From Cyanidiococcus yangmingshanensis (taxonomy: Eukaryota; Rhodophyta; Bangiophyceae; Cyanidiales; Cyanidiaceae): a DNA stretch of 64,000 nucleotides. Below the pieces are notes generated by a model. The model saw only the letters and a program-made list of their open reading frames with translations, had not been told where the DNA came from and made no database searches. A program made the position numbers and the translations under genes. Shown piece by piece: positions 6,106 through 62,407 of the stretch (the first letter of the stretch is position 1; every line of letters starts with the position of its first letter). The stretch is taken from NCBI GenBank assembly GCA_013995675.1, contig VWRR01000009.1, forward strand, positions 496,001 to 560,000. Direction: 5' to 3'.

Positions 6106-9100
6106 TTACGTTCGTTTGTGCTCATGTCGACGTCGTTTGTACTGGGCCGCCTTGACTACATCAGTGACCGCGAGACGTTTGCGAGCAGCTTGACGTGCTG
6201 CTCGCTCAGAGCGCTCTCGAGCAGTAACTTTCTGATACATATCCCAGAAGCGCACCGCACCGAGTCGCTGCGGTTGTTCCAGCTCGGCTCGGAGACGTTC
6301 CGCGATGGCCTCAAGTTCCGGATCGACGACTGAGACGTCATGCGCACCAGCTCGTTCCAAACGATAAAGAGGAAAGATCCAAGCAGCAAGATAGGGCTCA
6401 ATGGCCTTGGACCCGTCCAAGCAATCGCTACCTTGTGTCGCAGGCGCGTCCGAAGCGTTGCTCTCCAGCCGGGTATCTGTCGATACAAAGGCACTGCTGT
6501 GCCGAAGGAGCTGCTCGAGGACCGAGAGCGCCACTCGTCTCGCTAGGATCGTCTCGCGAGCACGCGTCGCCATACCCGAGAGTCGTCGTACAAGCCAACG
6601 CCAACCGGGACCAGCTTGAACACCAAGTTGGCACGCCAGTTGGGTCACGAGTCGCTCAACGACCATTGCCTGTTCTGGGGTGATTTGAATAGAACCGAGC
6701 TGTCGACAGAGCGCTGCTGCAATCGCACTGGAGTGTTCATCGTTCCAGGATGAACGAGCGAGTTGGCTTGTCTGGAACCAATGCCAGAGTCGCTCAGTGA
6801 CGCGCCCGAGTGCTGCTCGCACCCACGGGTGAGGATGCAGCAGCACGCTCACCCGACCTGTCTCGGGTAGACCAAACGCCAGGATATGCAAAAGTTTTTC
6901 GGCATCCTCGCGCGTCCATTGGGTCCAGGCATAGTTGGTCGGTTGGAGGGCGTTCTCGAGCCCGCGACAAGCTGCGTACGCCAAGTACCAAGCGCTGGCT
7001 CCTGTCTGTTCATGCTCGTCGTCTCTGAGGGTTCTGTTGTGGCGATCAGTGTCGTCATTCCGTTTTGGGATGCTGCCTTGTGCACCATTGAACTGGACAC
7101 AAGTCGATACCCATGGTTGCTCGAGAGCGCTGGATGCACGTTCGGGCGCGATGGACGGTGCCCAGTCCGAGACCGTCTCTAAAGACAATGCTTGCCGATT
7201 CATAGACATTCCAATGGTCTCCAGGAGCAACGCCAGGAGACCCGATGGACTCGCGATTGGGGCGAACGCAAATACCAACGCTGCTGCAAGACGAACGGCT
7301 GGACGCTGTCGTTGCGCAAGCCAGCGCTCCAACAGGGACTGCAGTCGTTCAAGCCGAGGGGGCATTCGTTTGGCAACCCTCGACGCCACGTGATCACTGC
7401 TTGGTAGCGGTTCAAAGAGGGCCAGGAGACATGCACGAAGCGCTTGATAAGCTTCTGGGCCCTGTTCATTCACAAGGCGAGCGCTGAGCGGCACCAGAAG
7501 GTACTCAGCCAGGGCCGAGTCATGGTGTTCGACGGGCGCCCCAGCAGACGAGCCGCCATGGTCACGACTCGTACCCGCTTGCCGCATGCTCATGACGAGT
7601 CTGTGCAGAAAGCGTGTACTAGCGATCCGTCCACTCTCATACTCGTACTCGAGGTTGCGCACAAACAGGTCTAACAGTCGTTGACGTTCCGCTTCGGTCG
7701 TTCTCGAGTTCCAACAGTAACGGGCCAACAATGCGATGATCTGATCCCGCAGAGCCGGGTCATGTGCTTGGATGACTACTTGTGCCAACCGTTCCGCCAG
7801 TGGCCATAGACTGGACCAGGGTGTCGTCGAAGACTTGCCTGGCGTTGTGAATCCAGAGCGCAACGCAAGCCGAAAGACAGCCATCCCGGCCGAGAGGTGC
7901 GTTCGTGAACGCTCACTCGACACAGACGCTTCTGCTGCTCGCCACAGAATTCTCCAGATCGTCTTCCGCATTCCTGCTGATTGCAACAAGTTTGGTATCG
8001 ATAGAAACACTGCTGCGACCCGCAACGTCGTCGCAAACAAGCCACTGTTCCAAGTTGCAGATTGCATGGACAGACTCGACTCGAGTTGGTGCTGCAATGG
8101 CAGCTGGCCCTGGGTCGATGACCAAGTCAACGACATCTGTCGCTCTAAAAGGCGTTGCAGCAACGGTCCCAGTCGCTTAAGGTATCCACGTATGACTGCG
8201 TCTGCAATCAGGTCTGGTGAGCGTAACAATCGCTGCACCAGTGATAGCGCCAAGACCACCAGACTATCATGACGAGACTCGAGTGCTTCCAAAAGCGGCT
8301 CGATGAGCAGACGCCAGACCCTTTGACGAGTGCTGCTCCATGGGGCATGCTGTGCAGTCGACTCCGTTTTCGCCAACGCTTCCTCGGTCGGTCGCGAGCT
8401 CCGGAGAAGCGGCCAGTGCCAAGCCCAGCGTAGCGCAGCTTCACGAAGCAGGAATGCCTCTGCTCGTCGCTCTCGGCGAAACGACTCCAGTTCAGGGCAT
8501 GTCTGGGCCAAAACATTCAGCTGCTGCAACGGGTCGTCTCGTCGCTTGGTCGCGGATACCAGCGCCTGCGTTCCATCGTCAGCGTAATAAGTAGCAGTGG
8601 TGTCCAACGATGCCTCCACTCATCGATAAGCGTGCCGAGTCCATGCTTGACCTTCGATTCAGCTCGTCAGTGGACAGTCTGGTACGCTCCTTTGGAACCG
8701 ATGTTGCCGCTTGGACACGGCCTAGTCGGGTCGATACGCTCCTTGTTGGTGCAGCGCAGCCAACGGATGGCTTCTCCAACAAGTAGCGAATACAGACCGT
8801 GATTGCTTGGATCTCCGCTTCCTGGTCTGGCTCCAGAGCTTGTCGAGTGATTCCCAACACGAAATGGTGCAGCAACCGACGCCACTGCTCCAGCTCTGGC
8901 AGCGATGCAGCACGATATTCGCCAGACTCGCTTTCTGTTCGATGTGCTTGTTTCGTGTCCGAGCGCAGTCGATGACGCAAGGCCCGCACAAGGAGCACAA
9001 AAGCACTGCCCAGATCCGCGACTTGTCGTGGCCACAACTGACCCAGCAGGGAAACGCTGGCCCAGAGACTGCTGACATGGGCCTCTCGCACGTCAGCGTA

Positions 9101-12100
9101 GAGCTTGGTAACTTTTTTCTCGGCTTCGATTTGTGGATCTCGGAATTCCGTGAGAGCAATCCATAGGGCGCTCTCGAGCGTTGGTGTACCCAGCAGAGGC
9201 GTTCCGTTCGTGTCCATGGACGCGACGGTCTGCAGGAGCACCTGGACAGTATACGGCCAGACATGGGCACGAAAACTTCCATCAGTGTGCTTGCCAGCAC
9301 CTGTTGCTGCAGGCAGGTTGCTGCTATCGGCTAGCTGCTGAAACACAACCGATAGCCATGATGGTCCGAGCTCGCGAACAAGGGTTTGGAGCGCCTCTCG
9401 AGCGTCATCCCGTCGTCGTTGGTCGGCACGAAGACCAACGTCTCGAAGCAGTCGAGTGACGAGCCTGGGTACTCGAGCGGCCATGACGCTCATCGGTTGA
9501 CGAGCCAGCGCCAGCACAAGCGTTTCAAAAAGCGGACGATTCAACCATGCCGGGGTGCCAGGTACCTGTCCCGAAGTTGCAGCTGTCTGCGGACTATACA
9601 GATGCGACTCGAGCCGTTCCAGTATCTCCAGGACCAAGCCATACTCCTGGTCGTCTTTGGGTACCTGTTCATGATCGGTATTTGCTGTCTCTTGGGCGTC
9701 ATGTTGCTGTCGACGCCCTGGTGACAGTGCATTCACATAGGCCAGCAGCAGATGCGGATCGACTTGCTTGCGGATCACCAATGTCTCATCATGTGGTTGC
9801 TGGCTAGGTATCTCGTCTCGTTCGACGACTCGATGCGTTCTCACCTGTCGATCGTATCGTCGAACAAGCCATGCTAGACGTTTCCAAACATCCGCTGGAG
9901 CAAAGCGTGCTGCCAGACGCGTTACCAGACGACGAGCGCTGGCCAGCCAAATGGCCCGCTGACGCCCTCTCTCGTCTACCTGTCGCTGAGAGGTTCTGGA
10001 GCCACTCGCCAGTTGCAAAACACGTTCAGCGAGTGGCAGCAGCAATCCTCGCTGAACAGTCAACGAGACGGGTGCTTCTTCGAGGCGCTCCAGTGCTCGA
10101 ATACGAAGTGCGAGCTGAACATGGGCAATCGTCTCGAAAACATCCTGGGTTTCGTCGCTATTCGTTAGTGGAGCGATTGCATCGACCCAGCTTGGATCGA
10201 GACCCTGCGGTAGTGCTCGGACAAGTCGACCCAACACACTCATGGCGGTACGTAGGAGTGTCAACGAGGACGCTAGAATGGCTTTCTTCCGCAAAAGCAT
10301 AATCACACGATGGAGCAGCGCTAGGAACGACGAGTCCGTCCCAGACAGTGCAATGGTGATCGTTGCCTCCTCTGCCGATCTTGGTCGGGGTTCTCGATGC
10401 CCCTCTACTTGCGTCGAGAGCGTGCCACTCGAAACGTTATTGGAATTTGGATGCTCTGCAGGCAGCGAAGCCAGCACCAGCCGGACAAGCGCGTCACCAG
10501 CTGCACTGCGGATCGCTCCATCACGGTGTTGCAGTGCTGCACTCAGATGAGGGACGAGAATGCTCCAATTGGTTGCAGGTTCATCGGTGAAACGATAGGC
10601 GTAGGCAGCAAGCACGGTATCCCAGTCTATCTGGCCAATGCTGGTACTAGAAAAACGATTCATCCGCTCCAAAAGCGCTGCAGCCAAGCGCACGCGACTC
10701 GACTTGGGCATGCAGTCTGCGAGTTGTTGAATCGAGCGGGCCAGTTCCCAGCGTAGACGACTCGCGACCGGGAAGCAGTCGACACGTTCCATCAACTGGG
10801 CCAGACGCTCTAGCAAGTCTGTGCCTTTCGAGGCTGGCAACCGAGCAGCCGTGCGTCCTGCAACGCTGGTGAATGCCTCCATAACCTCCAGTCGGAGTGA
10901 TTCCTCCATCGATTTGCGAGCGATCAGCATCACGAGGGTATCCAAGAGCAGCGGCAGCGAGCCCAAGAGCGGCGCACAACTCGTCACCTGAGCCAATGCT
11001 GCCTCTCGTTCTGGTTCGTTGCTCGCTGGTGCTGGATTTGTTTCCATCAATCGTCGGTTCCGGGTGCACCGGAGCTCGTTGGCGTTCGGGACCAGCTCGT
11101 CACCGCTCGTCTGGCCAAATGCGGTTTCAGTAACCGACAGCGTCTCGGTGCTGTCCAGGACTGGGTCAGGTATCGTTGCGGTGGACAAGGATGCAGCCAC
11201 CTGGAGCAGTAAACGGAGCGCCAGTGATTGAACTTGTTGTTCCGGAGTTTTCGGCACCAAAGATATCTGACCTTTTCGGTGCTTGCCATGCATCGACGAG
11301 TCTCCCAGACAGCGAACAAGTCCCTGAACGAGCGATGAGGGCCACGAACATCGGTTAGCATGGCCTGCAAAACGCTCTATAAGACTCAACAGAAACCATT
11401 GCAGGTTTGGATGGCTTGTACGGGTCAGACAATCTGCCAACCGACGCCAGAGTAGTGCAGCCTCTTCGACATGCCTCTCCAAAAGCGCGTCCAAGTAGAA
11501 ATCTGTCTGAATGAGCACCTGGAGTGGATAGAAGAGCGAAGGCGCTGAGGACGATGTCTCTCCGAAACTCAAACAGGCCAAAGCGCCGTCTATCAGCGGG
11601 AGCAGACGCTTCAACCACTCGTCTGGGGATAGCAGTGCATCGGAATCCTCGACGCTCGACTCGGTGAAGATTCCTGCTGTCGTCGATAGGCAGTCGTCTC
11701 TCGACCATGTTGATGCTGGTGTCGCTGAAGAGCCTTGCGACAGGCGACCCAGTGCATGCCACCAATCGTTTTGCATCATGTTTGTTGGCGTCGCTGCTGC
11801 TGCCTCGTCGTCGGTGCAGTCACGAGGACAGGTCAGGACACCGCCATGGAGTCGCGCTGTTGTCCAGTGGATGGTGCACTGCGCGACTTCGATGACTGAC
11901 TCGCAACCATGAGCAAGACTCGCTGCAACAGTCGCGCAGCCAGACGACGCACGCTCTTGTTGGCGACGACATCTTGGGCGTACCAAGCACTGAATGCAGT
12001 GAGCGCAAGGTGAGCAAGACTCCACTGCACATAGGCGGGAACCTGCAGGCCACCGAGGATAACGTCCGTCATGGCTGTCGCCAAACGCAGACGCGTCTCA

Positions 12101-15100
12101 ACGTTCGTTTCCCGTAGTATCCATCGCACGAGCGATACCAGTATCGAGGGAAAACAACCCATTTGGCCATAACATTGCATGATCGCTCGAAGGAGATGCT
12201 GATAACGCTTCTTTCGGGTGCTCTGAGTGCCGATCCCTAACTGGTGCGCCAGTGCTCGAGCACGACCATAGAGCAGGGCAGCCACAAGCGGCACAACCAG
12301 GTCAGCGTCCTCCGGTAGAATGACCATCGCTTCAACGCTGCTGTTGCTAGCCTCATCTTGGCGATGAATTCGATGCTGATGTTCATGCTTCTGACGCTTC
12401 GACGATATCTGCGGATGCTCCGTCGACTCGAGGTGGCCCTTCTCGGTCGGGATGCCGCCACGCTGTAACGAGCGTGTCGTCAAACGCTCTCGCTCTCGCG
12501 ACTGAACGATTTGTCGATAGCGAGTATGTAGTTGGACGAGTAGCGCAGCACGATCCGTCGAGTCAGCGGCGCTCAATGATGCTGTATGACGATTCCTAGC
12601 GAGAGGCAGGACCGCTTCGAGATCCACGAGTGCACCATTCAGCATTGCGACTTGTTCTCGCAGCGTTGCCAAGGATGAGCCGAGTGCACGCGTCTTGGTG
12701 CGCTTGCCTGCTGGCGCCATTGTACTCGACTGGACCAGGACGCGTAACGGAGGCAAGTAGGCTCTTCGGTACTCTTCATGCCAGTTTGGCACCTGGAAGA
12801 GCGCTTCTAGGGCCGCGTGCTGTAAGGCGGTCTGCTCTGCTTGTAGGGCACTCCACAAGCGCTGTGTAGCGTCGGCTCGGCAGGCTGCATCGGTCCCGTG
12901 GAGAGCTTGTTCAGCCAGCAGGACACCAAGACTGTCCCAGTGGAGGATCTCGATTCTCGTTGGCACCGATCGTTCCAGGAGAAGCAACCTGACCAGGGCC
13001 ATCCGTTGAGTTTGATCAAGCGAATGCAGCGACATGGCAATGAACTGAACCAGATTACGATACAAGGTCTCGGGTGGAATCACCCCACGAACGGCCGTGG
13101 TAGACGGGTCTGGACGAGTCGGCTCGATCAAGTTCAGCGGCGATTGTTGCGGAACTTGGTTGGTCTCTAGCTTGATAGAATCGCCCGGGAGAGCACTTGT
13201 ACCGTCAATGGCCACGAATTCAAGAGGAATCAACGAGCTCCATATCTGTCCCAGAGCGCGTTGCGTGTCGTCCATCCATGGCCACAACGCAGCACTAGAG
13301 AGTGCCGCCTTCCTTGCTCGACTCGAGTTCAGACCAAGTCGCCAACGCAAGCCAGGCGGCTTTCTTCCGAACGCTGGTTCTGTCCCGGTGATCAACGATT
13401 GTCGGCCATGAGCAGGGACTGCTTTCGGCAGCGTCTGCGGTGATTTCAAAGACATTTGCCATTCACTCGATGGGGTCGCAACAGTTTCTGATCTCGTCTC
13501 GTCCTGGAGCAATGGAGTCATCTTCTGGGCGTTCATTGCTTCCGAGCAGTCTGTTTGGGCATTCGTCCATGCACCAGTCTCGATAGCGTTCTTCGGCGGC
13601 TTCACGGTTGCATTGGGATGCGGCAGAGACTCGGCTGCGGGTGTCGTTAAGCGAGCGTCCATCGAAGCGGCGCAGGTGCTCGGCTGGGTCGACCACTGCT
13701 GCCCGAGTGTCTGGTTCATGCCATGCTTTTCTGAAGCGCATGTGGTGGCCTCAACACCTTCAGCGATCGTCTTGTGGTCGCTAAAACGGGTCCTGATGGA
13801 GGCGTTCAGCAACGGCTGCGTCTCGTGGACGTTTTCATTCGTCACAGATGGAGTGGTCTGGAGACTGCCAGCGTCGTCGACGAGTCGGCGAATGTCTTTG
13901 GTTGCATTCGCGTTCCCGACACCCACCTTGTCGAATACTGCATCCGTGCTTGCTCTTCGACGACGAGGTAGGGAAAGTGTCGGTGGCCTTATCTTCTGAG
14001 GAGCGTTCCGCAACATATCTGGGTGGTCGGCTGAATCTCCTAGAGCACCGTTGACGGCCCAGTCGCAACGTCTTTGAGTGGCACCCAACAAAGGCATGAG
14101 TACTTGCTCGAAAGCAACAGATCTACCGAGAAGAGAGATCCCAGCTTCCCATACTGCTGGAACCTCTTTCCAGAACAACGTCAATGGCAACTGAAGGCAA
14201 CCAACAATGGTGAATAACACCAGCCGTAGAAGGGATCTGGGTACAACAGAGGCATGCTGCTTTCGAAGCGTTACAACAGCACGTCGGAAATGAATCCGGG
14301 CAGTATCAATCTGCTGGATGTCGTTGATGAATGCGCAGCCAAGTTGATAGATTTCAGCCATGGATCTGAAGAAGTCGGCAAGTTGTGATGCAGGACTCGC
14401 CTCAGTTAATTTGGCACAGAGCACTAGCTCTGCTGCCGAACAGATTCGTTTCCGCTGGGGACGATGCAGCTCGCTCTGTGCTGCCCAGTGTTCTGCATCG
14501 GTTGGTTCCGGTCGCAGCTGCACGAGTTCCTGGCAGAGTCCATCGAGAACTTGCTCTGCATCCGCTCGATCTGTCAGTCGACTGGTCCTCTCAAGACAGG
14601 TTCGGAGCGACTCCATATCGTCGCGAAACTGGAAGCACATCACTGCGAGCGCCAATGGTGATGGATCTGAAAGAAGCACTGAACGTAGCCGCTGCTTCTC
14701 ATCGACAGCGTCGCGTGGTAGACCCAGTGAGCGCGCCAGGTAGAATGCAATCGTTCGAACCGTAACGTCTGGGCTCTCTAGGTCTGCAACTTGCCAGAGC
14801 GCCGGGCTTTGTTGGAATATGTTTTGCAGTGCTGACCCCGCACTCGGATCTGCGGTGAGCATGGCGCGAAGCACTCGCCATATCCAGGCCAGCTGGGAAG
14901 CTCGCGACACACCCGCTAACGGGAGACGATGGTACACGTCCCCGAGTATATCGCCCAGCATCTGCGCGGTGGACACCGAATGCCAGCGACTATAATGCGT
15001 AACCAGCCACTCTATCACGGTTGCAGTGACCCGAATATCGGAGACACGACTCATGAGGTGTTCCAGAAACTGGCGCATGGTCATTGTCGTTCCTGCGGTA

Positions 15101-16270
15101 GCCACTGCTCGTCCGTAGATTGCTAGGAACCATGCAAGGCTTTCGCCACAACCATGCTCCAATGCCAGTGATAAAAGCTTGGTCATCATTTTGTTGGCAA
15201 GCAAGGGAGCGTCCCCGGCACCAGACCGATGAGATCGACAGAAACGTTCTAACCATACGCCCAATCCATACAATACAGTAGGCATGCGCTTGGGCGGTGC
15301 TCGCGCTATCCACGGCAACAAAGGTCATTTCGAGCAGACGCGTTGTCGCTTCTGGCCTCAGTTCACCTCCGAGTCGCCACCATAACGCGATCAAAAGTGT
15401 CTGTTGGTAGGCATCCAGCCGGTCCGTCTCTGGATCCTGGCTAAAGACGCATCGATGTAGATGATCCAACAGCACGAGTGCCCCCGAATGCAATTGTCCA
15501 CGTACGCTGGTGCATCCATAGAAGAAGGTGGCTGCAACCGCATCCGCCTCTCTTCGAATAGAATCAAGTTCGCCTGCGACATCGGGATTCGCCGTCACCA
15601 TAGCCTGTACACAAAGCAGAAGCTCCCCATTCGCCAGTCTTCGAAGCAAGACACCCGCACTCTGTGCCGCAAAGAGACGCACATGCTCGCTTCGGTGGCT
15701 CAGCAGCAACGCACGCCATGTCTGGAGGATACGATACGTCTCGCCAGCAACGGCCTGTTGCTTACTCCAAAAACGAAAGAGCCGCATCACCGTCGAGAAG
15801 AAAACTTCAATCTCAGTCGCATCTCCAAAGTCAACGGAACCGGCCAAAACTTGGATCGACGGCACCAAGAAAGGATAAAAATCAGTGGCCAGGTCCCAGG
15901 CGAACGCCTCCCAGCAGGCAGTGAGCGCAGCGAGCGACGACGCCTGCTCCCGTACGGCCCGCACCCACTGCCGAAACACTCGTTTCCGATTCCGCAACAA
16001 CAGCGGTAGAGAAATCACCCATGGATGAACAGCACTCGCAAAATCACGAAATGATCGGGTACGATCTCGATCGCTCCACTGAATAATTGTTGTTCGCAGG
16101 TACGTATCCAACGATGCGCCGTGCCTCGCCAGAACATCATTATCACCAGCAGCCAGCACTTGTTTCCGTCGTCGCAGAACCGAGCTCAGATCAGTCTGAC
16201 GCAGTCGATCCCTCAATGACAGGAACTTGAAATGCTGCTTTCCTCGGTGGATTTTATTCAACACTTTCAT
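6106..16270 (-). CDS. UTP20: UTP20/DRIM HEAT-repeat protein of the small-subunit processome, split over four frames
   Basis: UTP20 is a giant HEAT-repeat scaffold of the nucleolar U3 snoRNP processome, needed for 18S rRNA maturation. The gene begins at ATG 16270 and is read in four successive minus frames: 16270 to about 15300, about 15300 to 11870, about 11870 to 8610, and 8619 to 6106. The N-terminal part has the DRIM signature (TTIIQWSDRDRTRSFRDFAS, then FYPFLVPSIQVLAGSVDFGD). The last part has the very conserved LFVRNLEYEYESGR and EYLLVPLSARLVNEQG. The C-terminus is the usual basic tail with a coiled coil. The shifts are +1, -1 and +1; the third must lie between 8579 and 8622. No intron with convincing splice sites bridges them. 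Summed length is near 3,390 residues, larger than yeast (about 2,500) or human (about 2,800). It is either an intact gene with assembly indels or a decaying copy. Protein-level conservation across all four parts favours a working gene. Confidence 0.85.
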
Positions 16271-30228: not shown

Positions 30229-31497
30229 ATGCTCAGTGAAGGGGACTACGCGGGAGGCTGGGTTTGTCTACCGAGAGCAAGTTCTCGAACGACGAGTGCA
30301 CAGTCGTGGCCTGGGGAGAAGCACGCTGAGACGTTAGCACCAACGCAAGCCGAGTCGTTCCGAAACGTCTTTGTTTCGCTGCTGGCGCTCACCCAGGTCG
30401 CTGCGCACTGCTTTGCTGAAGGCGTTGAGACTGAAGTGTGCGGACTTTTATGGGGGTTTGTGCCTCCCGGAGCTGCCACTCACGTGGTCGTCGTCTGTGA
30501 CGCCACTGCAATACCGGGTTCGGCTCCAGAGGCGACCACGATACCCTTGCCGAACGTGACAACGCAGGCCAACTGGCCGACCCATGGCTTACAGTTAGAT
30601 ATCGGGGAACGCGACCGCCTGCGTGTGGTTGGCTGGTATCGTACCCATCCTGGCTATGGCTGTTGGCTCACTCGAGTGGAGCAAGCCAGCCAGGCAGCCG
30701 GCCAAGAGGTGCAAGAGCCCTGGATAGCCATTATTGTGGATCCGTTACAGAGTCGTCGTATTGGCCGAGTGGCGTTACGCGCTTTCCGGGTCTATCCGCA
30801 GGGGTTCCAGCCCCCAATGCAGGAGTCTGGGCACAACCTATTCACAAGCGAATCGATTCCACTTAATTTTCTGGATGAATATGCTCGTGAAGTCTCGTCT
30901 TGCTATGAGTTGAGGGTACGCTACTACGGCACCGAGGCCGATGCATCGATCTCCGCGTGGATCGAGCAGCACGATTGGCCCTGCGTTCTGTCAGCCTCAA
31001 ATATGGCCACGAGTCGCGCTTTCATGGTCAAATCCCTGGAAGATCTCGTTGGCAAGACTGAAGCCGCCGAGGTGGCCATTCGGCAACTGATAAGTGCACG
31101 ACTACACGCAGACAAGGCGACGGAGAGCCCCAGCGAGACAACTGCGGGACAGGAAAGCCTCCTGGATATTGCGCAAGGACCAGCTTCCTTTGCAGACGAT
31201 GAACGGCAAATGGACGACGCATTGGGCAGTCGCTCTACATCAGGTCCGATGCCATCATCATCCGCACTTGGTGCAAAGCGTCATGCATCGTCGCTGCCGC
31301 CCTTGTCACCAGGCATCGGCCGTCGAATGTCTCAACCGCGCTCAAGCGAGATGCATTCCCAGAAGAATACGATGATCAGTGCAGCGGCGACCAATGTCTC
31401 GGAGCGGATGGAGCGTTTGGCCGCGGACGCGCGCGCTATTTATGCGGATTACGCCCGCATGCTGCTACGGGAGGCCCTCAAGGAGGCTCTGTTTTAA
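30229..31497 (+). CDS. CSN5: COP9 signalosome subunit 5 (CSN5/JAB1) with degenerate JAMM site
   Basis: CSN5 is normally the zinc isopeptidase of the COP9 signalosome, removing NEDD8 from cullins. The frame starts at ATG 30229 and encodes 422 residues. The MPN+ domain is clear: TEVCGLLWGF, VGWYRTHPGYGCWLTRVE, then QEPWIAIIVDPLQS and ALRAFRVYPQGFQPP. The YPxGFxPP stretch and the Q-E-P block are CSN5 traits, not RPN11. The JAMM core should read H-S-H-P-x6-S-x2-D. Here it reads R-T-H-P-x6-T-x2-E: the first zinc His is Arg (residue 138), the Ser is Thr and the Asp is Glu. The distal Glu is kept. Deneddylase activity is therefore unlikely, and a structural role is inferred. The C-terminal half is low-complexity and ends in a helix. 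Confidence 0.85.
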   Translation: MLSEGDYAGGWVCLPRASSRTTSAQSWPGEKHAETLAPTQAESFRNVFVSLLALTQVAAHCFAEGVETEVCGLLWGFVPPGAATHVVVVCDATAIPGSAPEATTIPLPNVTTQANWPTHGLQLDIGERDRLRVVGWYRTHPGYGCWLTRVEQASQAAGQEVQEPWIAIIVDPLQSRRIGRVALRAFRVYPQGFQPPMQESGHNLFTSESIPLNFLDEYAREVSSCYELRVRYYGTEADASISAWIEQHDWPCVLSASNMATSRAFMVKSLEDLVGKTEAAEVAIRQLISARLHADKATESPSETTAGQESLLDIAQGPASFADDERQMDDALGSRSTSGPMPSSSALGAKRHASSLPPLSPGIGRRMSQPRSSEMHSQKNTMISAAATNVSERMERLAADARAIYADYARMLLREALKEALF

Positions 31498-35956: not shown

Positions 35957-37036
35957 ATGAGCGGGCACTCTGGTCGAGACATGTCGCGAGCCCTTCAAGT
36001 TGACGATAGCGAAGCACCGTTGCTTCTGTGTAGATTGCAGAGCGGTCGGGCGCTCGTTGAAGCGCTGACGAGTCTGCAAGCGGCGGCTTCTCCCTGCAGT
36101 GACTTGGTTCTAGTAGTGGTTCCCCGGAATCGCAACGGACTACGGTTCGTTATCCAAGAGTTTGGTTATTTTCAGGCATGTGTGACGTTACCGCGGGAAC
36201 TTTTTACGGCTTTTGAGTGCAGAACAAGCGGCGAATCAGCTGAGGAGACTGCGTTCCAGGTGCCAAGGACTGAGCTGCTGACTAGCCTGCGACTTTTGAT
36301 CAGCTCAGTCGGCCAGGCGGAGAAGTCTGCTCTGTTCGCACCGCTGCGGTTACTCTATCGGAGTCGGGCAAGCCCGCTGCAGCTGCTGCTGCAGAGCGAT
36401 AGCACGAGCTATCTTGAATGCGAGGTACAGACGCTGGCCGATGTTCCGATTTATGACTTTGGTTTTCTGCAGGTCCCCGTTTACAATGATGCTGTAATAT
36501 CGGGTCGTCTGTTGGCGACTTGTTTTGCAGAACTCGAGTATGCTGGTGCTCGCTCGGCACTGATCACCATGATGCCTTATCCTCGACAGGGCCTACGCTT
36601 AGAGGCTGTCGGTGACGCGACTGGGGCCCATTTGACGATCGAGGTACCCCATTCGACCGCAGAGGATGACTCTGCGATAGAGCCGTCCACGTTTCTGGAG
36701 TTCGAGTCCATCCAGGAGCAGTGTGTGTCCTATAGCGTGCATTTGTTGAAACGATGTCTTAAGGCACTCCAGAGCGCGGATATCGTGCGTATACGGATGA
36801 ATGCGAATGATGTGCTCCATTTGACGGCACGAATGCCGCTGTCACCTGGCCTCGGATCCAAGCACTCATCCAGTCGCGGTGCTCATGCAGTGCTTGAGGC
36901 TGCCCTGGCGGTTGTCGAGGGTGCATCGTATTCTTCGGAAAGTTGCTTTTTCGAGTTTTTGGTCGCACCTGCTGTCGTCAACAATGCACAGTCTGATTCA
37001 TCGGTTGCAGCCCATGGGGGTCTTCCGGCGTACTGA
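35957..37036 (+). CDS. RAD1: RAD1 subunit of the 9-1-1 DNA-damage checkpoint clamp
   Basis: RAD1 forms the PCNA-like 9-1-1 ring with RAD9 and HUS1, loaded at damaged DNA to activate checkpoint kinases. ATG 35957 gives 359 residues; a second ATG at 35981 (MSRALQ) is equally possible. Recognisable family blocks are FVIQEFGYFQACVTLPRELF (early beta strands), LLTSLRLLISSVG, PLRLLYRSRASPLQLLLQS, a FGFLQVPVYNDAVISGRLLA segment matching the region before the interdomain loop, and SVHLLKRCLKALQSADIVRI near the end. No catalytic residues are expected in a clamp. Length is slightly above the human protein (282), mainly from N- and C-terminal additions. It is followed on the same strand by XRCC3, another DNA-repair gene, though each should have its own promoter. 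Confidence 0.82.
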   Translation: MSGHSGRDMSRALQVDDSEAPLLLCRLQSGRALVEALTSLQAAASPCSDLVLVVVPRNRNGLRFVIQEFGYFQACVTLPRELFTAFECRTSGESAEETAFQVPRTELLTSLRLLISSVGQAEKSALFAPLRLLYRSRASPLQLLLQSDSTSYLECEVQTLADVPIYDFGFLQVPVYNDAVISGRLLATCFAELEYAGARSALITMMPYPRQGLRLEAVGDATGAHLTIEVPHSTAEDDSAIEPSTFLEFESIQEQCVSYSVHLLKRCLKALQSADIVRIRMNANDVLHLTARMPLSPGLGSKHSSSRGAHAVLEAALAVVEGASYSSESCFFEFLVAPAVVNNAQSDSSVAAHGGLPAY

Positions 37037-38067
37037 TTTGCGTTCTGGAACTAGGTAAGTATGTACTGCATCAGCGTCGCCAGAGTGCGCTTTTCGTGGA
37101 ATGCTGTTGCGGACAGCGTCGATGCTCTGTAACTTTTCGGGAACGGAGAACAAAGTTGCCATGTGAACACAGACAGGAAGCCGTCGTCCTTGAACCCAGA
37201 CGTCTGGCTTATCTATATACGCTTTGGATCCTGAGTAGCAACTTGACTGCATCTGCCGAGATACAAGGCCCGCAATTCTGTTCCGCTCGCTCGAGGTCAC
37301 ACGATGGCTCGAAACCGGGATCACAGCAACAACGGCAAACATGCTCTGTAGTCAGTAGGTTGCGAATCGATTCTACCAGGTTCGACGACCTGCGAAGACA
37401 CTCCAAGGTGTCCGCAGCGAACGGAACATCAGAAGAAGCCGTTGACGAGACACATTGCTGCTGCCATACTGTTTTGGCGAATGTCGCGGTAGTGGGTGTG
37501 AGCAGCTGCCGATCAACACCAATGACGACTGCAAATTCGCTGAGATGTTCGTTTGGCGGGCGACGACTCCTGAACAGCTTTGTGTTGCGAAATATGGTGC
37601 AGACGTCGACTTGTATGGCCCGAGCCCGCGTCTCGTTTAGGGCCCTATCCGTGACTTCTTCCCGAGGCGTCTGCTCCGTTCAACCCTGAGGCGAAGCGAT
37701 GAGGTACCGGCCTCTAGGACATATCGAAGCGATGAGCGACATAGAAGCAAGGTGGTAGCCACACAATCGATTCCTTCGCCAGCCTTATGCTTTTTTATGA
37801 GAAAGGCGCCTCTTTCGCTGTGGACGCCGGGGAGGTAGTCAATCCGTCAGGGGGGTATGAGCTCGATCTGCATCGTTAGGCGTTCGTTTCACTGAGAACA
37901 GCTTTTTGGTCCGCAGGCAACAACGTCTGTTGGGCTGCATGGATTGTGAATGAGGGTTGATGCCGTCAAAAATAGCAAGTCGTAGACGAATGCGCTCCTC
38001 ACGACTTGTTCCGTCGAGGAACCGGCGATACGGCCAATCGGTCTGGGTGACCCAAACACACTGACGG
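37037..38067. other. Intergenic region between RAD1 and XRCC3
   Basis: 1.0 kb between same-strand genes. Frames up to about 197 codons (37096-37689) are open but resemble nothing and show no ordered motifs. No RNA gene or repeat seen. Confidence 0.5.
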
Positions 38068-39405
38068 ATGCGCATTTTATTGTTCTGTGTTTGGGCGAGT
38101 GAGGGTCCTACACCTTTGTCGGTTGCGTGCAACCGGTGCCGGGCTCTAGCGTGGCGACGGCTCTGGGAGGCAAACGTCCATCGCCTATTTGAGGGAATGG
38201 CCACCGAGGACTCGAATACGTTGAGCACCTGGACTGGGGGGACATGTTCCGACACCGAACCGTCCTTGTTGTCAAAGGAGCTCGTAGAGTCGTTCCCCCT
38301 CGCCTTGGCGAACAGGCTGGTCTGCTCAGCACCGCCGAGTACAGAGCGCAGTCTACAACGACTTGTGACGCGAGCGCGAGAACGAGCCGTCCCCAGAGCT
38401 GCCCCTGGCGAGAACGAAGCCAAGTTGGATGAGGTATACGCGTTTGACTGGCAGGCTCTTTTGGACTTGGAAGCCTGGCGCTCCACACACGCCGAGCTGG
38501 GACTGCGGGAGTCTTTCTTATGCGCTTGTGCAAGGCTTGCTCAGGAAACGTTCAACTCGACTGGGGACCCTTTGAACGAATCGAAGGAGTACTTGGCGGG
38601 GACTCGCCTATGCTGGCCGCTGGTATCGGGACCCTGTTTCCTCTCTTTTGGCTGTTCGCTATTAGACGAAATCATACGCGTTCGTTTTGGAGCAATCACG
38701 GAAATTTACGGTGAAGCAGGAAGTGGTAAGACGCAGCTTCTGCTTCAGCTCGCCGCGAGGAACCCCGTCAAGACGCTCTACCTCTACAGCGAGAGCGGGC
38801 GGTTCCCATCGGAGCGTTTGGCTGAAATAGCAACCGCAAAGGAGCGACTGTCGTCTCCCGATGATACCTTGGATCGAATCCTCGTTGAGAGGCGCAGAAG
38901 CGCTCTGGGTTCGCCAGCCGCATTGCTACGTTTCGCGCGCGGGCCTCTCCGAAAACTGCTAGAGCAACAGCCTGAGCCTCAACTCCTGATTATTGACAGT
39001 ATCGCTGCAGTGGTTCGCCACGCCTATGACCATCAGCAGCGAAGCGCATTGACCAAACGAGCTCGTTGGATGTTTCGCTTTGTGAGTACGCTTCGGCAGC
39101 TGATGCGAGATCATCGGCTTGCGGTCTTGGTGTCAAATCAAGTCTCTCAGCGCATGGACGGTGAGCTTATCCCAGCATTGGGTTTAGCCTGGTCCCAGTG
39201 CATCAACACTCGCATCCGTCTGGAGCGTGGAGCCAGTGTTGCGGCTCTGATGCATCCAGTTGCGGAAAGCAGCTCTTGCCATGTTGTGCGCTGTGCGAAA
39301 GTGTGCTTTGGTGACTGGGGACCCGAACCAGGAAGCATCGTCTCGTTCCAGATCGATCAGACAGGAGCACGAGGCATTCAAGTGAGTTATTCCAATCCGA
39401 GTTAG
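38068..39405 (+). CDS. XRCC3: XRCC3-like RAD51 paralogue
   Basis: XRCC3 is a RecA-fold ATPase that partners RAD51C in homologous recombination. The frame from ATG 38068 encodes 445 residues; ATG 38197 (MATEDSNTLSTW) would give 402 and fits the family better, since nothing before it looks conserved. The ATPase core starts near FLSFGCSLLDEIIRVRFGAI, the RAD51-family opening. Walker A is ITEIYGEAGSGKTQLLLQLA with the Lys and Thr intact. Walker B is QLLIIDSIAAVVRHAYD, and VLVSNQVSQ is the L2-adjacent block. The SIAAxxR and VSNQV patterns match XRCC3 better than RAD51 or DMC1. The long N-terminal region is variable and carries no clear helix-hairpin-helix domain. Paralogue assignment is likely but not certain. 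Confidence 0.82.
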   Translation: MRILLFCVWASEGPTPLSVACNRCRALAWRRLWEANVHRLFEGMATEDSNTLSTWTGGTCSDTEPSLLSKELVESFPLALANRLVCSAPPSTERSLQRLVTRARERAVPRAAPGENEAKLDEVYAFDWQALLDLEAWRSTHAELGLRESFLCACARLAQETFNSTGDPLNESKEYLAGTRLCWPLVSGPCFLSFGCSLLDEIIRVRFGAITEIYGEAGSGKTQLLLQLAARNPVKTLYLYSESGRFPSERLAEIATAKERLSSPDDTLDRILVERRRSALGSPAALLRFARGPLRKLLEQQPEPQLLIIDSIAAVVRHAYDHQQRSALTKRARWMFRFVSTLRQLMRDHRLAVLVSNQVSQRMDGELIPALGLAWSQCINTRIRLERGASVAALMHPVAESSSCHVVRCAKVCFGDWGPEPGSIVSFQIDQTGARGIQVSYSNPS

Positions 39406-57733: not shown

Positions 57734-60186
57734 ATGGCTCGACAACCGCAATCCCGCTCAGAGAGGCGATGCTGGTCACATCGACAAGAACGAACCTCGA
57801 ATGCTTGGCCTGGTCGCTCGATCCAGTCCCCAGTGTACCACGATGAGCTCGACGCTATAGGGCTATGCACCAGCCCGGCGCTGCAGCCTTCGCTGGATAC
57901 ATATATTCAGAACGATCGCACGGTATGGAATGTGCGAGTCGATCCCGTGTTGAATCGTTGGCATGCTTACTGTCGGCATCGGTCTGGAGATGATCTTTTA
58001 CTGAAGAGTGTGCATGTTTTGGAGGATTGTTGCCTTGAGATCGAGGAGATGGCTTGGGATTCATCGTTGTCTGAGTGCTTGCTTGAGAGCAGCGCGTCAG
58101 ACTGGCGCACGTTGCATCTTCGCGGGTGCTGTCCGTACGGGTCCGAGGCTGCCGATATTGGACGACGGTTGCAGATGGCGATCCGGCACTTGGACCAATG
58201 GGATGATTTCGTTTGTGCCAGCAACCGATCGGAGTCGATTGAGCTCCCCAGCAACGATGAGTTGGCGCTTCTCGTTGACCAATGGCAGCAACGGGGCGAA
58301 TGCGTGGTTTTCATTCGCAATGCCCAGTGCACTCCGGAGGCAGCCGAACAAATTCTAGATTACATCCATCGACAAGGGCTGGCGATTCGGAGCGCAGAAG
58401 TCGTCACAGGCGGTTCCAATGATTTCGCGGTGACGCCGGAGTCCGCCTCATGCCCGTGTCCCGAATGCTTCGCCCAGGTTCAGCAGCTCTGGGCCGCCGC
58501 GCAAGCTCGATCGTTGCACGCCAGTGTCCCCACAACCTTGATACTTGGCGTCGCTGGTTCAGGCGGTGCGACCGTTGACTCACCCAACCAGTTGGGTACA
58601 CTGCGAGAGCTCTGTTTGCAACTGGGCGGGCCGGAATGTTCCGTTGAGGTATATCTTCCCAAGTCGGTGCCAGCGGAAACCGCAGCGACTGCACGTTCAG
58701 AGATGTCGCACATGTAGCGGATCCAGCACATGCATCTCGAGCGACACGGAGGAAGACCCCTCCTCAGAGAACGAGGAAGTGGACTCCTTGGTGTCAGGCG
58801 GAGCCTCATATGACGGCCCGGACCATTTCGCATCCTGTTCGAGCGATACCGCCGTGCGCACCACAGCCACAGGAGCCCTGCCTAGCCATCGCCATTCAGA
58901 TGAGGCTACGCCAACGACAGACGAAATCTCCGGACAGGGAGCCAGCGCAATACAGGACGATGCGGCGGAACGCTCACACGGCGTTGTGATCATCTCTTCG
59001 GTGTCGTCTCTTGGGGCACGATCCGGCCCCGACTGCGATTCGGCGCCCAGCATGCAACGGCCCCATGAAAGAGTGCCAGACGACCGGGCCGTCGTCAAGC
59101 TCGTCTCGGGGGATGCTCAGAAAACGAGGCGTTGCGGCAGTCGTCTGCGAGACCGCTCCAAGGCAGGGCGCGAGCTGAGCACAAAAAGCGAGGCAGCTGA
59201 ACGAAACATTTCCCTTGTGTCGGAGGAACCGCTCAGACAAGTCGACGACACGCTCGCTAGGTCACAGGCACCGAGCCATTCCCGCTGGCCAAGCACATCC
59301 AAGGCCCGAAATCGACCAGTGCGCTCGGCATGGCCCTCCTCGAATCGCCCGCTGCGTGGCGAGCGATCCTCGGGTTCAGCAATAACAACAACAACAACAG
59401 CTGCAGCAACAGCAGCACATACCCTGACTGCTGCTGACAACGAGATCGACACTCGTGAGCCTCTCTCATCGCTCACGCATCCTATCGAATCTCTTCGTTT
59501 CGGATATCCCGCACATCAAGGTCGAATATGATGAAGAACTGGATCGCTTCCAAGTGCACATCGATACGCATTCACGACCGGGGATCACGTTCGATCTCGT
59601 GCGAGCGTTCCGGGCCCTGAACCTCGTCATCGAGCGCGCCTCGATGGCAAGGACGGATCGCGTGCCGCGTGTCGATGCCCGTGCATCTACGCATTCTGAA
59701 GCAGCCGTTGAGACGAGGACTCGCGCACAGATTTTACTCCAAATACCCAAACATACATACCCAGGCATCCGTTCGTTCCGCTGGCAGACTGCAACGAGAC
59801 CAGAAGTTGCATCCCTGGAAGCCCAGCTACGCAGCACCATCCTGGATGTGCTCTGCAATCCGATCTGGATGCGCAATCGACCCGATGGGGCGGTGACCTG
59901 CGTCGACATTCGCAGTCCGGCGCGCGACGGTCGACTCGGGGACCTGTTGCGATTCGTGCACGCATCGCGACTGCGTGTCCGTCGAGCGCGCATGCGCACG
60001 CATGGCACTCGTGTCCATGACTGCTTGTATCTCACGGATATGGTGATGCAAAAGGCGGTTCCATCGCTACTTTGGGCAGATTTACGTGCGCAGATGTTGG
60101 CTGCTGTTGTTGGTGTGGACTGTTTGGCCCTGATTCATCCGACGTTGGCGAGCCTTGCGACGATCGGGATGACACATGACGTCTGA
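57734..60186 (+). CDS. ACT-repeat protein, split over three frames
   Basis: ACT domains bind amino acids and regulate metabolic enzymes; plant ACR proteins carry several. Reading starts at ATG 57734. The first frame has an ACT-like unit (RVDPVLNRWHAYCRHRSGDD, then LKSVHVLEDCCLEIEEMAWD) and a second weaker one (CVVFIRNAQCTPEAAEQILD). It ends in TAG at 58715-58717. The +1 frame continues as a 260-residue acidic, Ser/Thr-rich linker with an ACA/GCA microsatellite near 59384-59420. A second +1 step before 59505 leads to IKVEYDEELDRFQVHID with SRPGITFDLVRAFRALNLVI, a clear ACT domain, and a final unit ending RVHDCLYLTDMVMQKAV. The similarity between units supports one gene. No enzymatic domain is attached. 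A nitrogen- or amino-acid-sensing role is inferred. Confidence 0.62.
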
Positions 60187-62407
60187 CCGACTGGTCTGCT
60201 GTGTGCTTGCTTGACTCGGCTCGTGAGCGATCATTGCGAGAAGCACTGCTCGACTGAGACGAAGGCTGGCGGTATGGTCTTCGGCAAGTTGGCGTAGGGG
60301 CCTCGACGGGCTGGCGTCTAACGCGCGCCGCCATCGAGGCCAGACCAGCCGATTCCATTGACGCACGAGGCGGTGCATGGCCGCGGTCAGGGTTGATAGA
60401 TCGTCATGGTTGCTTGTCGGGTCGCTGTAACCGAGTGTGCGTACTCTTCCCTGCAGACGTAAACAGACTCCTTGACACAAGGCGATGAACTGACGAATGG
60501 AGAGGAGCATGGCCGAGAACGCAGGTGCGAGGTCAGCGGTCTGCGCAACAGGTCTGGTCATCCGCCGGCGACTCGGAGAGGTGCTGGTGCTGACGCCTCG
60601 CGACCACGAGGGGCGCGTTCGCGAAAATGACGCGTTGTGAACCTTCTCTTTCGGAGTGGATGGATCAGCAAAGTCGTTGGCGTCAGCGCTAGTTCGGTCC
60701 TGCCAGAATAAACCGACAGAGGCCATGCGAAAGTATTCATCAAGCGCGGCTTTGAATGCACTCAGGGGCGGATCGTTGCGATTGTTTTCGAGCTGCGCGA
60801 CCAGGATGCGCCACGCGGGTGCAAGGATCTCAGCATAGAGGCACCGAATGATGGCGTGAACGCACTGACTGAGGTATGAGCGGAAGAGCGCACATGTCGC
60901 CAGTATCGTTTGGGGATGATCCGCGCAGCACTGCGGGTCGCGTGCTGGCACTGTGGCCATGCGTGTTGGTGCCCAGCGGCGGAGGTCCTGATAGAGCCGG
61001 GCGAGTTCGCCGGCCACTCGATCGAGCTGGTGCTCAGCAAGTCGTAACCTCCAAGCGACGTTGTACAGACGCTGGTACTCGCTGAAGCGAGGGCATTGGC
61101 GCAAGAGATAGTGAATTGGCTCGGGGAATGCGTAGGTTAGCATGAATGCATCGGCGATACAGTCCTTGATCGCGAGCGTGTGGATCTACCAGGTAAACGT
61201 CGAGACAGTCTTGCGTGCTGTCCACAGAAGACCGAACAGAGCGACCAAGTCCGCTGAGAGCAAGCGCCTCGACCAGAGCTTGAACGAGGTGGCTTCGCTC
61301 TACGGTCGTGGTTTTGCAGCGGAGCAGCGGCTCGAGCTTTTCTATCAAATGGCCGGCGAAATCGCTGTTCTCAAGCAGCACGAACATGCGGTGGAATTCA
61401 AGTTGTTGCAGCAATCGAAAACGCTCGAGAAAGAGATCTCGAATGGGTACATCATGCCGCAGATGCTCTATCAGGTCGAGCCTCTGCATCCATTTGGTGG
61501 TGGAACCGACCACTGCAGCATCCACGAGGACAGCGCGCGACGCCGAAAAACGCGTCTCGTTCTCGAATACCGATTGCTTGGCCCATTTGCGGTAAAGAAA
61601 GCGCGAGAGACCGGCGTGGAAGATACGATCTGCCACGAGTTGCGGTATCAACGTGGGCAAAGCCTCGGGAACCAGAGCAGGGAATCTGTGCTCATCGAGC
61701 CGAATGAAGTACTCATTCTCAGCGCCCATGAGGTCGCCGTGGGTCACCCAGGATATGATCACTAGATTCATGGGTGCACTGGCGGCGGAAAAAAGCCGGT
61801 CTACGAGCTGGCGCACGGCCGGATCGCCATGGCTTCGGTACTGCCAAAGTAGATCGAGAATACGGGCAGCATCCTTCTCCCGATCGACTTGATCGCGTAA
61901 AGCATCGGAGATCATTGCTAGCCATCGCAAGAGCACACTGCGATGAGGCTCCATGAGAAGGGACAACTGAGGCAACGTTAGCCAGCCTTGGAGTTGCAGA
62001 CGCTCAGCTTGATCCAGTGCCGCATGATAGGCCTGCAGTTCTGCGGCAACGGCACTCCGCAGTGCGCTCCGGGTGCGGCTCTCCTGGGTGATTGCGTCAG
62101 GGCTCGAGGCGCGCATCGGCTCCGTCAACGCGCTGTACGTTGTACACGATTGCATGAACGGCCGTATGTGGCGCGCATAGAGCCATCCCGCTTCCGCGAT
62201 CGACCGCACCAGATGCACGACCGCATCCTCCAGATCGAGCTTCTCTACGGCAACCTGGAAAAGGTCGTTGCGCTCGTCGTATCGGATGATTTCGCTCGGT
62301 GCTCCTTTCAGCACCGCAAGCAGCTCTGGAAGCAGTTGCTGTTCGTTTTTGGAAGCATATGGCACGCCAGCCACGGACTCGACCATGATGCTTGCACCAA
62401 CTGTCAT
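60082..62407 (-). CDS. TUBGCP2: Gamma-tubulin complex component 2 (GCP2/Spc97), one frame change
   Basis: GCP2 pairs with GCP3 in the gamma-tubulin small complex that nucleates microtubules. ATG 62407 starts close to the first grip motif (LLPELLAVLKGAPSEIIRYD); GCP2 usually has a longer N-terminus. Grip1 continues with ERLQLQGWLTLPQLSLLMEP, GDPAVRQLVDRLFSAASAPM and SWVTHGDLMGAENEYFIRLD. These resemble GCP2 more than GCP3. Near 61175 the reading moves +1, to FMLTYAFPEPIHYLLRQCPR and YQRLYNVAWRLRLAEHQLDR, the start of grip2 that binds gamma-tubulin. The C-terminal part is interrupted by a Ser/Arg-rich insert. The two frames overlap at 61034-61143 with no splice signals. Combined length is about 775 residues. 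Its last 105 bp overlap the ACT-domain gene on the other strand. Confidence 0.83.

Follow-up and report, generated by a model that had tools for sequence, protein, structure and literature searches.

Can the COP9 signalosome (CSN) of an organism still remove NEDD8 when its subunit 5 (CSN5) carries an arginine where a zinc ligand belongs? This is the question raised by window positions 30229-31497 on the forward strand, the window being the whole 64-kb stretch of DNA that we analyzed. Our best explanation, held with reasonable confidence, is that the locus belongs to a compact nuclear genome and encodes its CSN5 orthologue, that the JAMM metal site of this orthologue has decayed, and that the product is most likely a pseudo-deneddylase.

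The gene and its identity

The window has a GC content of 55.4% and is occupied by long frames over most of its length, with each gene mostly contained in a single frame. Besides CSN5, 17 of 28 frames gave Pfam matches at thresholds of 0.001 or 0.01, depending on the scan, and 11 gave none; the matched genes include LETM1, lipin, RhoGAP, formin, eIF4E, and Rad1. These features fit a red alga, probably of the Cyanidioschyzon kind, with a compact nuclear genome poor in introns. The Rad1 (9-1-1 clamp) gene lies close to a Rad51-like gene on the same strand (35957-39405, forward). On the reverse strand, two long overlapping frames without a Pfam match (11833-15285 and 14990-16270, together 11833-16270) adjoin a UTP20-like gene at 8579-11779, and these two frames may be fragments of a single large gene.

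The locus at 30229-31497 is a single open frame of 422 codons without a stop, and it is coding. Its codon score is 0.122 bits per codon, against 0.108 to 0.265 for 13 other named genes of the window scored by leave-one-out, and the five other frames at the locus score between -0.22 and -0.30. A chance frame is ruled out by the coding score together with the PDB matches of the product. The features recognized along the gene are as follows.

30355..30717, forward: JAB/MPN domain, residues 43-163 (Pfam PF01398, 1.1e-11, 45 bits against a cut-off of 22.5)
30508..30624, forward: diverged counterpart of the human insertion-1 loop, human residues 97-131 (alignment, 7 of 35 positions identical)
30790..31119, forward: segment past the MPN core whose PDB matches are exclusively CSN5 (11 of 11 distinct sequences, E up to 10)
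30991..31092, forward: putative beginning of the C-terminal domain of CSN5, covering positions 1-34 of the 81 in the profile (PF18323, 20.7 bits, under the curated cut-off of 27)

The identity of the product as CSN5 is firm as judged by sequence comparison, given that CSN5 takes the first 11 places among 35 PDB matches to the full protein (E up to 0.01; 104 to 112 bits for these 11) and that every match to the segment past the core, which contains none of the JAMM motif, is CSN5 as well. The preliminary description of this DNA had named the gene CSN5, and the PDB ranking, the segment past the core, and the JAB domain all bear it out. RPN11/PSMD14, an MPN+ paralogue with the same core, was rejected because it reached at most 63.6 bits, compared to 112 for CSN5, and did not match the segment past the core. 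When the MPN half was searched alone, CSN5 still came first (59 to 65 bits), followed by RPN11 (54 to 58 bits). CSN6 was rejected as it is absent among the 35 matches, and eIF3h as its PDB match is only about 19 bits.

Toward the C terminus the protein becomes harder to place. A second search with PF18323 (CSN5_C) gave 25 bits against the cut-off of 27, with the match in two stretches and the best of them again at positions 1-34 of 81. The last 39 residues, searched alone, matched neither CSN5_C nor any PDB chain. Some 100 Ser/Ala-rich residues precede this final stretch (31099-31400, forward), and the comparison with the human protein ends at human residue 281. The human chain 4d10_E, for example, has 334 residues, compared to 422 in the window protein, of which the last approximately 130 are unaligned.

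Residues 38-297 were modeled with AlphaFold from 46 sequences. The model had a mean pLDDT of 65 and was confident in the MPN core only, with block means of 74 to 94 across most of the core and 44 to 62 in the insertion-1 loop; a single-sequence fold of the protein reached a pLDDT of 34.5. CSN5 chains filled ranks 1 to 16 of the 50 listed when the model was searched with Foldseek, at TM-scores of about 0.4, kept low by the poorly modeled C-terminal part. We take this ranking as no more than supporting evidence for the CSN5 identity.

Residues of the JAMM site

Across human CSN5 positions 52-281, 70 of 230 residues are identical in the window protein. The identical residues are spread as 14 of 45 ahead of insertion 1 (Ins-1), 7 of 35 in Ins-1, 11 of 20 in the JAMM block (132-151), 19 of 45 in 152-196, 4 of 23 in insertion 2 (Ins-2), 10 of 38 in 220-257, and 5 of 24 in 258-281. 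Like human and plant CSN5/JAB1, the window protein has an MPN domain with the HPGYGCWL core, the QEP and DP motifs, and the CSN5-type stretch after the core; it differs from them in H138R, S148T, D151E, and a diverged Ins-1. Within this loop, Glu stands opposite the autoinhibitory E104 and Thr opposite R106, in a part of the alignment that is weak and uncertain, and a human R106T mutant has been described in which Ins-1 is relaxed and activity is gained (excerpted text of PMC4140821). The divergence of Ins-1 proves little, because Ins-2, 220-257, and 258-281 have also diverged, and general divergence probably accounts for much of the change in the loop.

The site itself lies at 30631-30681 on the forward strand, which translates to GWYRTHPGYGCWLTRVE. 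The core reads R138-T139-H140-P-GYGCWL-T148-RV-E151, where human CSN5 has H138-S139-H140, S148, and D151; the numbering of this core coincides with the human numbering by chance. The relevant codons, all on the forward strand, are as follows.

30433..30435, forward: E69 (GAA), the retained catalytic general-base Glu, equivalent to human E76 (codon reading and human alignment)
30640..30642, forward: R138 (CGT), replacing the zinc ligand H138 (codon reading and human alignment)
starting at 30643, forward: T139 (ACC), human S139 (codon reading and human alignment)
30646..30648, forward: H140 (CAT), a zinc ligand retained (codon reading)
30670..30672, forward: T148 (ACT), replacing the catalytic Ser148 (codon reading and human alignment)
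30679..30681, forward: E151 (GAG), replacing the zinc ligand Asp151 (codon reading and human alignment)

The preliminary description had reported that the His/His/Ser/Asp set is changed at three of its four positions, with the loss of a zinc ligand among them. The codons confirm H138R, S148T, and D151E, with H140 intact, and the CGT codon together with the human alignment upholds the loss of one of the three zinc ligands at 30640-30642. Measured against the MPN+/JAMM motif (E-xn-H-S/T-H-x7-S-x2-D), the protein has the Glu and the second His, while the first His is Arg, the Ser is Thr, and the Asp is Glu. We considered S139T as a further source of damage and rejected it, given that the motif as written in the excerpted text of PMC300881 (EXnHS/THX7SXXD) permits either Ser or Thr between the histidines. 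By residue type, S148T and D151E appear mild and conservative and H138R radical. With two of the three changes conservative, H138R bears most of the argument, and we consider it very probable that a protein with R138 cannot hold the catalytic zinc in the normal way.

We scanned contig collections for relatives that would show how constant these positions are. Led by the window protein, the scan of genome_contigs matched the pattern in 25 stretches and the scan of viral_contigs in 8, with no relative in either, and an alignment query against viral_contigs gave 20 stretches and again no relative. When the genome_contigs scan was led by a piece of human CSN5, it matched at least 584 stretches, of which at least 424 encoded relatives. 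The best 80 of these 424, ranked by likeness to human CSN5 with its normal site, were kept; judged by their titles, they comprise 77 archaeal and 3 bacterial sequences (L036, L065, and L072) with no eukaryotic relative among them, and the sample therefore represents prokaryotic relatives rather than eukaryotic CSN5. Both His residues, the Ser, and the Asp are kept in all 80. The search pattern, GWY-H/R-S/T-HPG, is present in 77 of them; in these 77 the search forced the second His and narrowed the choice at the first position but left the Ser and Asp unforced. Even though Arg was allowed at the first position, His was found there in 77 of 77 and Arg in none, and the residue between the histidines is Ser in 72 and Thr in 5. 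The later Ser and Asp occur in all 77 pattern carriers, two of which have one inserted residue before them. In the other three of the best 80, the pattern is absent from the forward frames of the locus, and they read H-S-H-P with the S and D. No relative with an H138R-type change was found in the genome_contigs scans (best 80 of 424) or the viral_contigs scans.

Published mutants and readings of the altered site

We judged the effects of H138R, S148T, and D151E by analogy with other published substitutions, as given in excerpts of the papers cited. In human CSN5, H138A removes the zinc ligand while the complex assembles normally; in cells the mutant does not restore normal Cul1 neddylation, and it retrieves Cul1-N8, that is, neddylated Cul1 (PMC4878873). 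Deneddylation by H138A is described elsewhere as severely diminished (PMC6707232). In fission yeast, deneddylation was abolished by E56A and by S128A, the zinc ligands were also described as essential, and mutants of E56 and of the zinc ligands were modestly dominant negative (PMC300881). For this copy, the suggestion in the preliminary description that the COP9 signalosome may lack deneddylase activity is a sound one given what published substitutions at these residues do, and the window CSN5 would most likely be a catalytically dead scaffold or cullin binder rather than an enzyme. The other suggestion made there, a CSN5 moved to a new role, is speculative. Among the matches listed from the open-licence literature, no description of a naturally dead CSN5 was recognized by title or the start of the abstract.

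The retained residues sit less easily with a dead enzyme. The general-base Glu and H140 are kept, position 151 is still acidic, and all three count against a dead site; the retention of the catalytic Glu and H140 in particular may mean that the change is recent, that these residues serve the structure, or that some metal chemistry persists. One could propose on these grounds that the altered site still works, either by holding metal through H140, E151, and another group or by acting at a low rate, given that D151E retains the acid, S148T retains the hydroxyl, and a dead enzyme would put no pressure on the kept Glu. We regard this as quite improbable. Arginine is a poor zinc ligand, and none of the best 80 of the 424 relatives, all prokaryotic, uses this set of residues. 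Loss of the first His alone also severely diminishes the activity of human CSN in the excerpted accounts (PMC4878873 and PMC6707232).

A second reading leaves the dead site in place but moves the activity to another gene: a canonical, active CSN5 could lie elsewhere in the genome, with the copy in the window a diverged paralogue that acts as a partner or decoy. Two CSN5 genes can occur in plants (CSN5A and CSN5B, as named in the title of a cited reference). However, the window looks compact and gene dense, a setting in which duplicates would be rarer, and we consider this reading unlikely, although it is the strongest of the rivals. Alternatively, the gene may be active and its Arg codon may come from an error in sequencing or assembly, given that a single base change turns His into Arg and that S148T and D151E are mild. 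Misassembly is a minor yet genuine concern in this window, where a gamma-tubulin complex component gene (60082-62407, reverse) runs across two overlapping frames and changes frame around 61140-61180, whether through a real frameshift, a tiny intron, or an indel of the assembly. Were codon 138 in error, this would nevertheless leave T148 and E151, both of which are absent at those positions in all of the best 80 of 424 relatives, and we regard this explanation as very improbable.

A proposed signalosome with a metal-free subunit 5

Returning to a pseudo-deneddylase as the preferred reading, we propose that the replacement of H138 by Arg would cost the protein its normal zinc site. As a guess, the side chain of Arg138 may occupy the place vacated by the metal and form a pair with either E151 or E69. 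The fold would stay stable without metal, as it does in the MPN-minus subunits. These subunits (CSN6, RPN8, eIF3h, and eIF3f) likewise have the MPN fold but lack a complete zinc site. Unlike them, the window sequence groups with CSN5 and RPN11, CSN6 and RPN8 being absent among the 35 PDB matches (E up to 0.01), and by closest sequence in the PDB search it does not belong with CSN6, RPN8, or eIF3.

The closer likeness is to the laboratory H138A mutant, which has lost the same zinc ligand and, in the excerpted account, still assembles and holds neddylated cullin. The window protein differs from the mutant in that its change is natural, is to Arg, and is accompanied by two further changes at the site. 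By analogy with H138A, on which the idea of binding and capping neddylated cullins rests, the window CSN5 is predicted to enter the CSN and to hold neddylated cullins while leaving their NEDD8 in place, and the CSN would then cap cullin ligases without acting as an enzyme. A more far-reaching possibility, which we hold tentatively and rate below the pseudo-deneddylase reading of this copy, is that the organism is a eukaryote without CSN deneddylation: its sole CSN5 would be a pseudoenzyme with Arg in place of zinc, its CSN would govern cullin ligases purely by binding, and the removal of NEDD8 would be rare or would fall to another enzyme. Any vital role that the CSN may have apart from the cutting of NEDD8 is hard to separate from its catalysis. 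If our reading is correct, a natural CSN with a dead but maintained catalytic subunit would separate the two and offer a tractable test, and it would mean that deneddylation can disappear while CSN5 stays.
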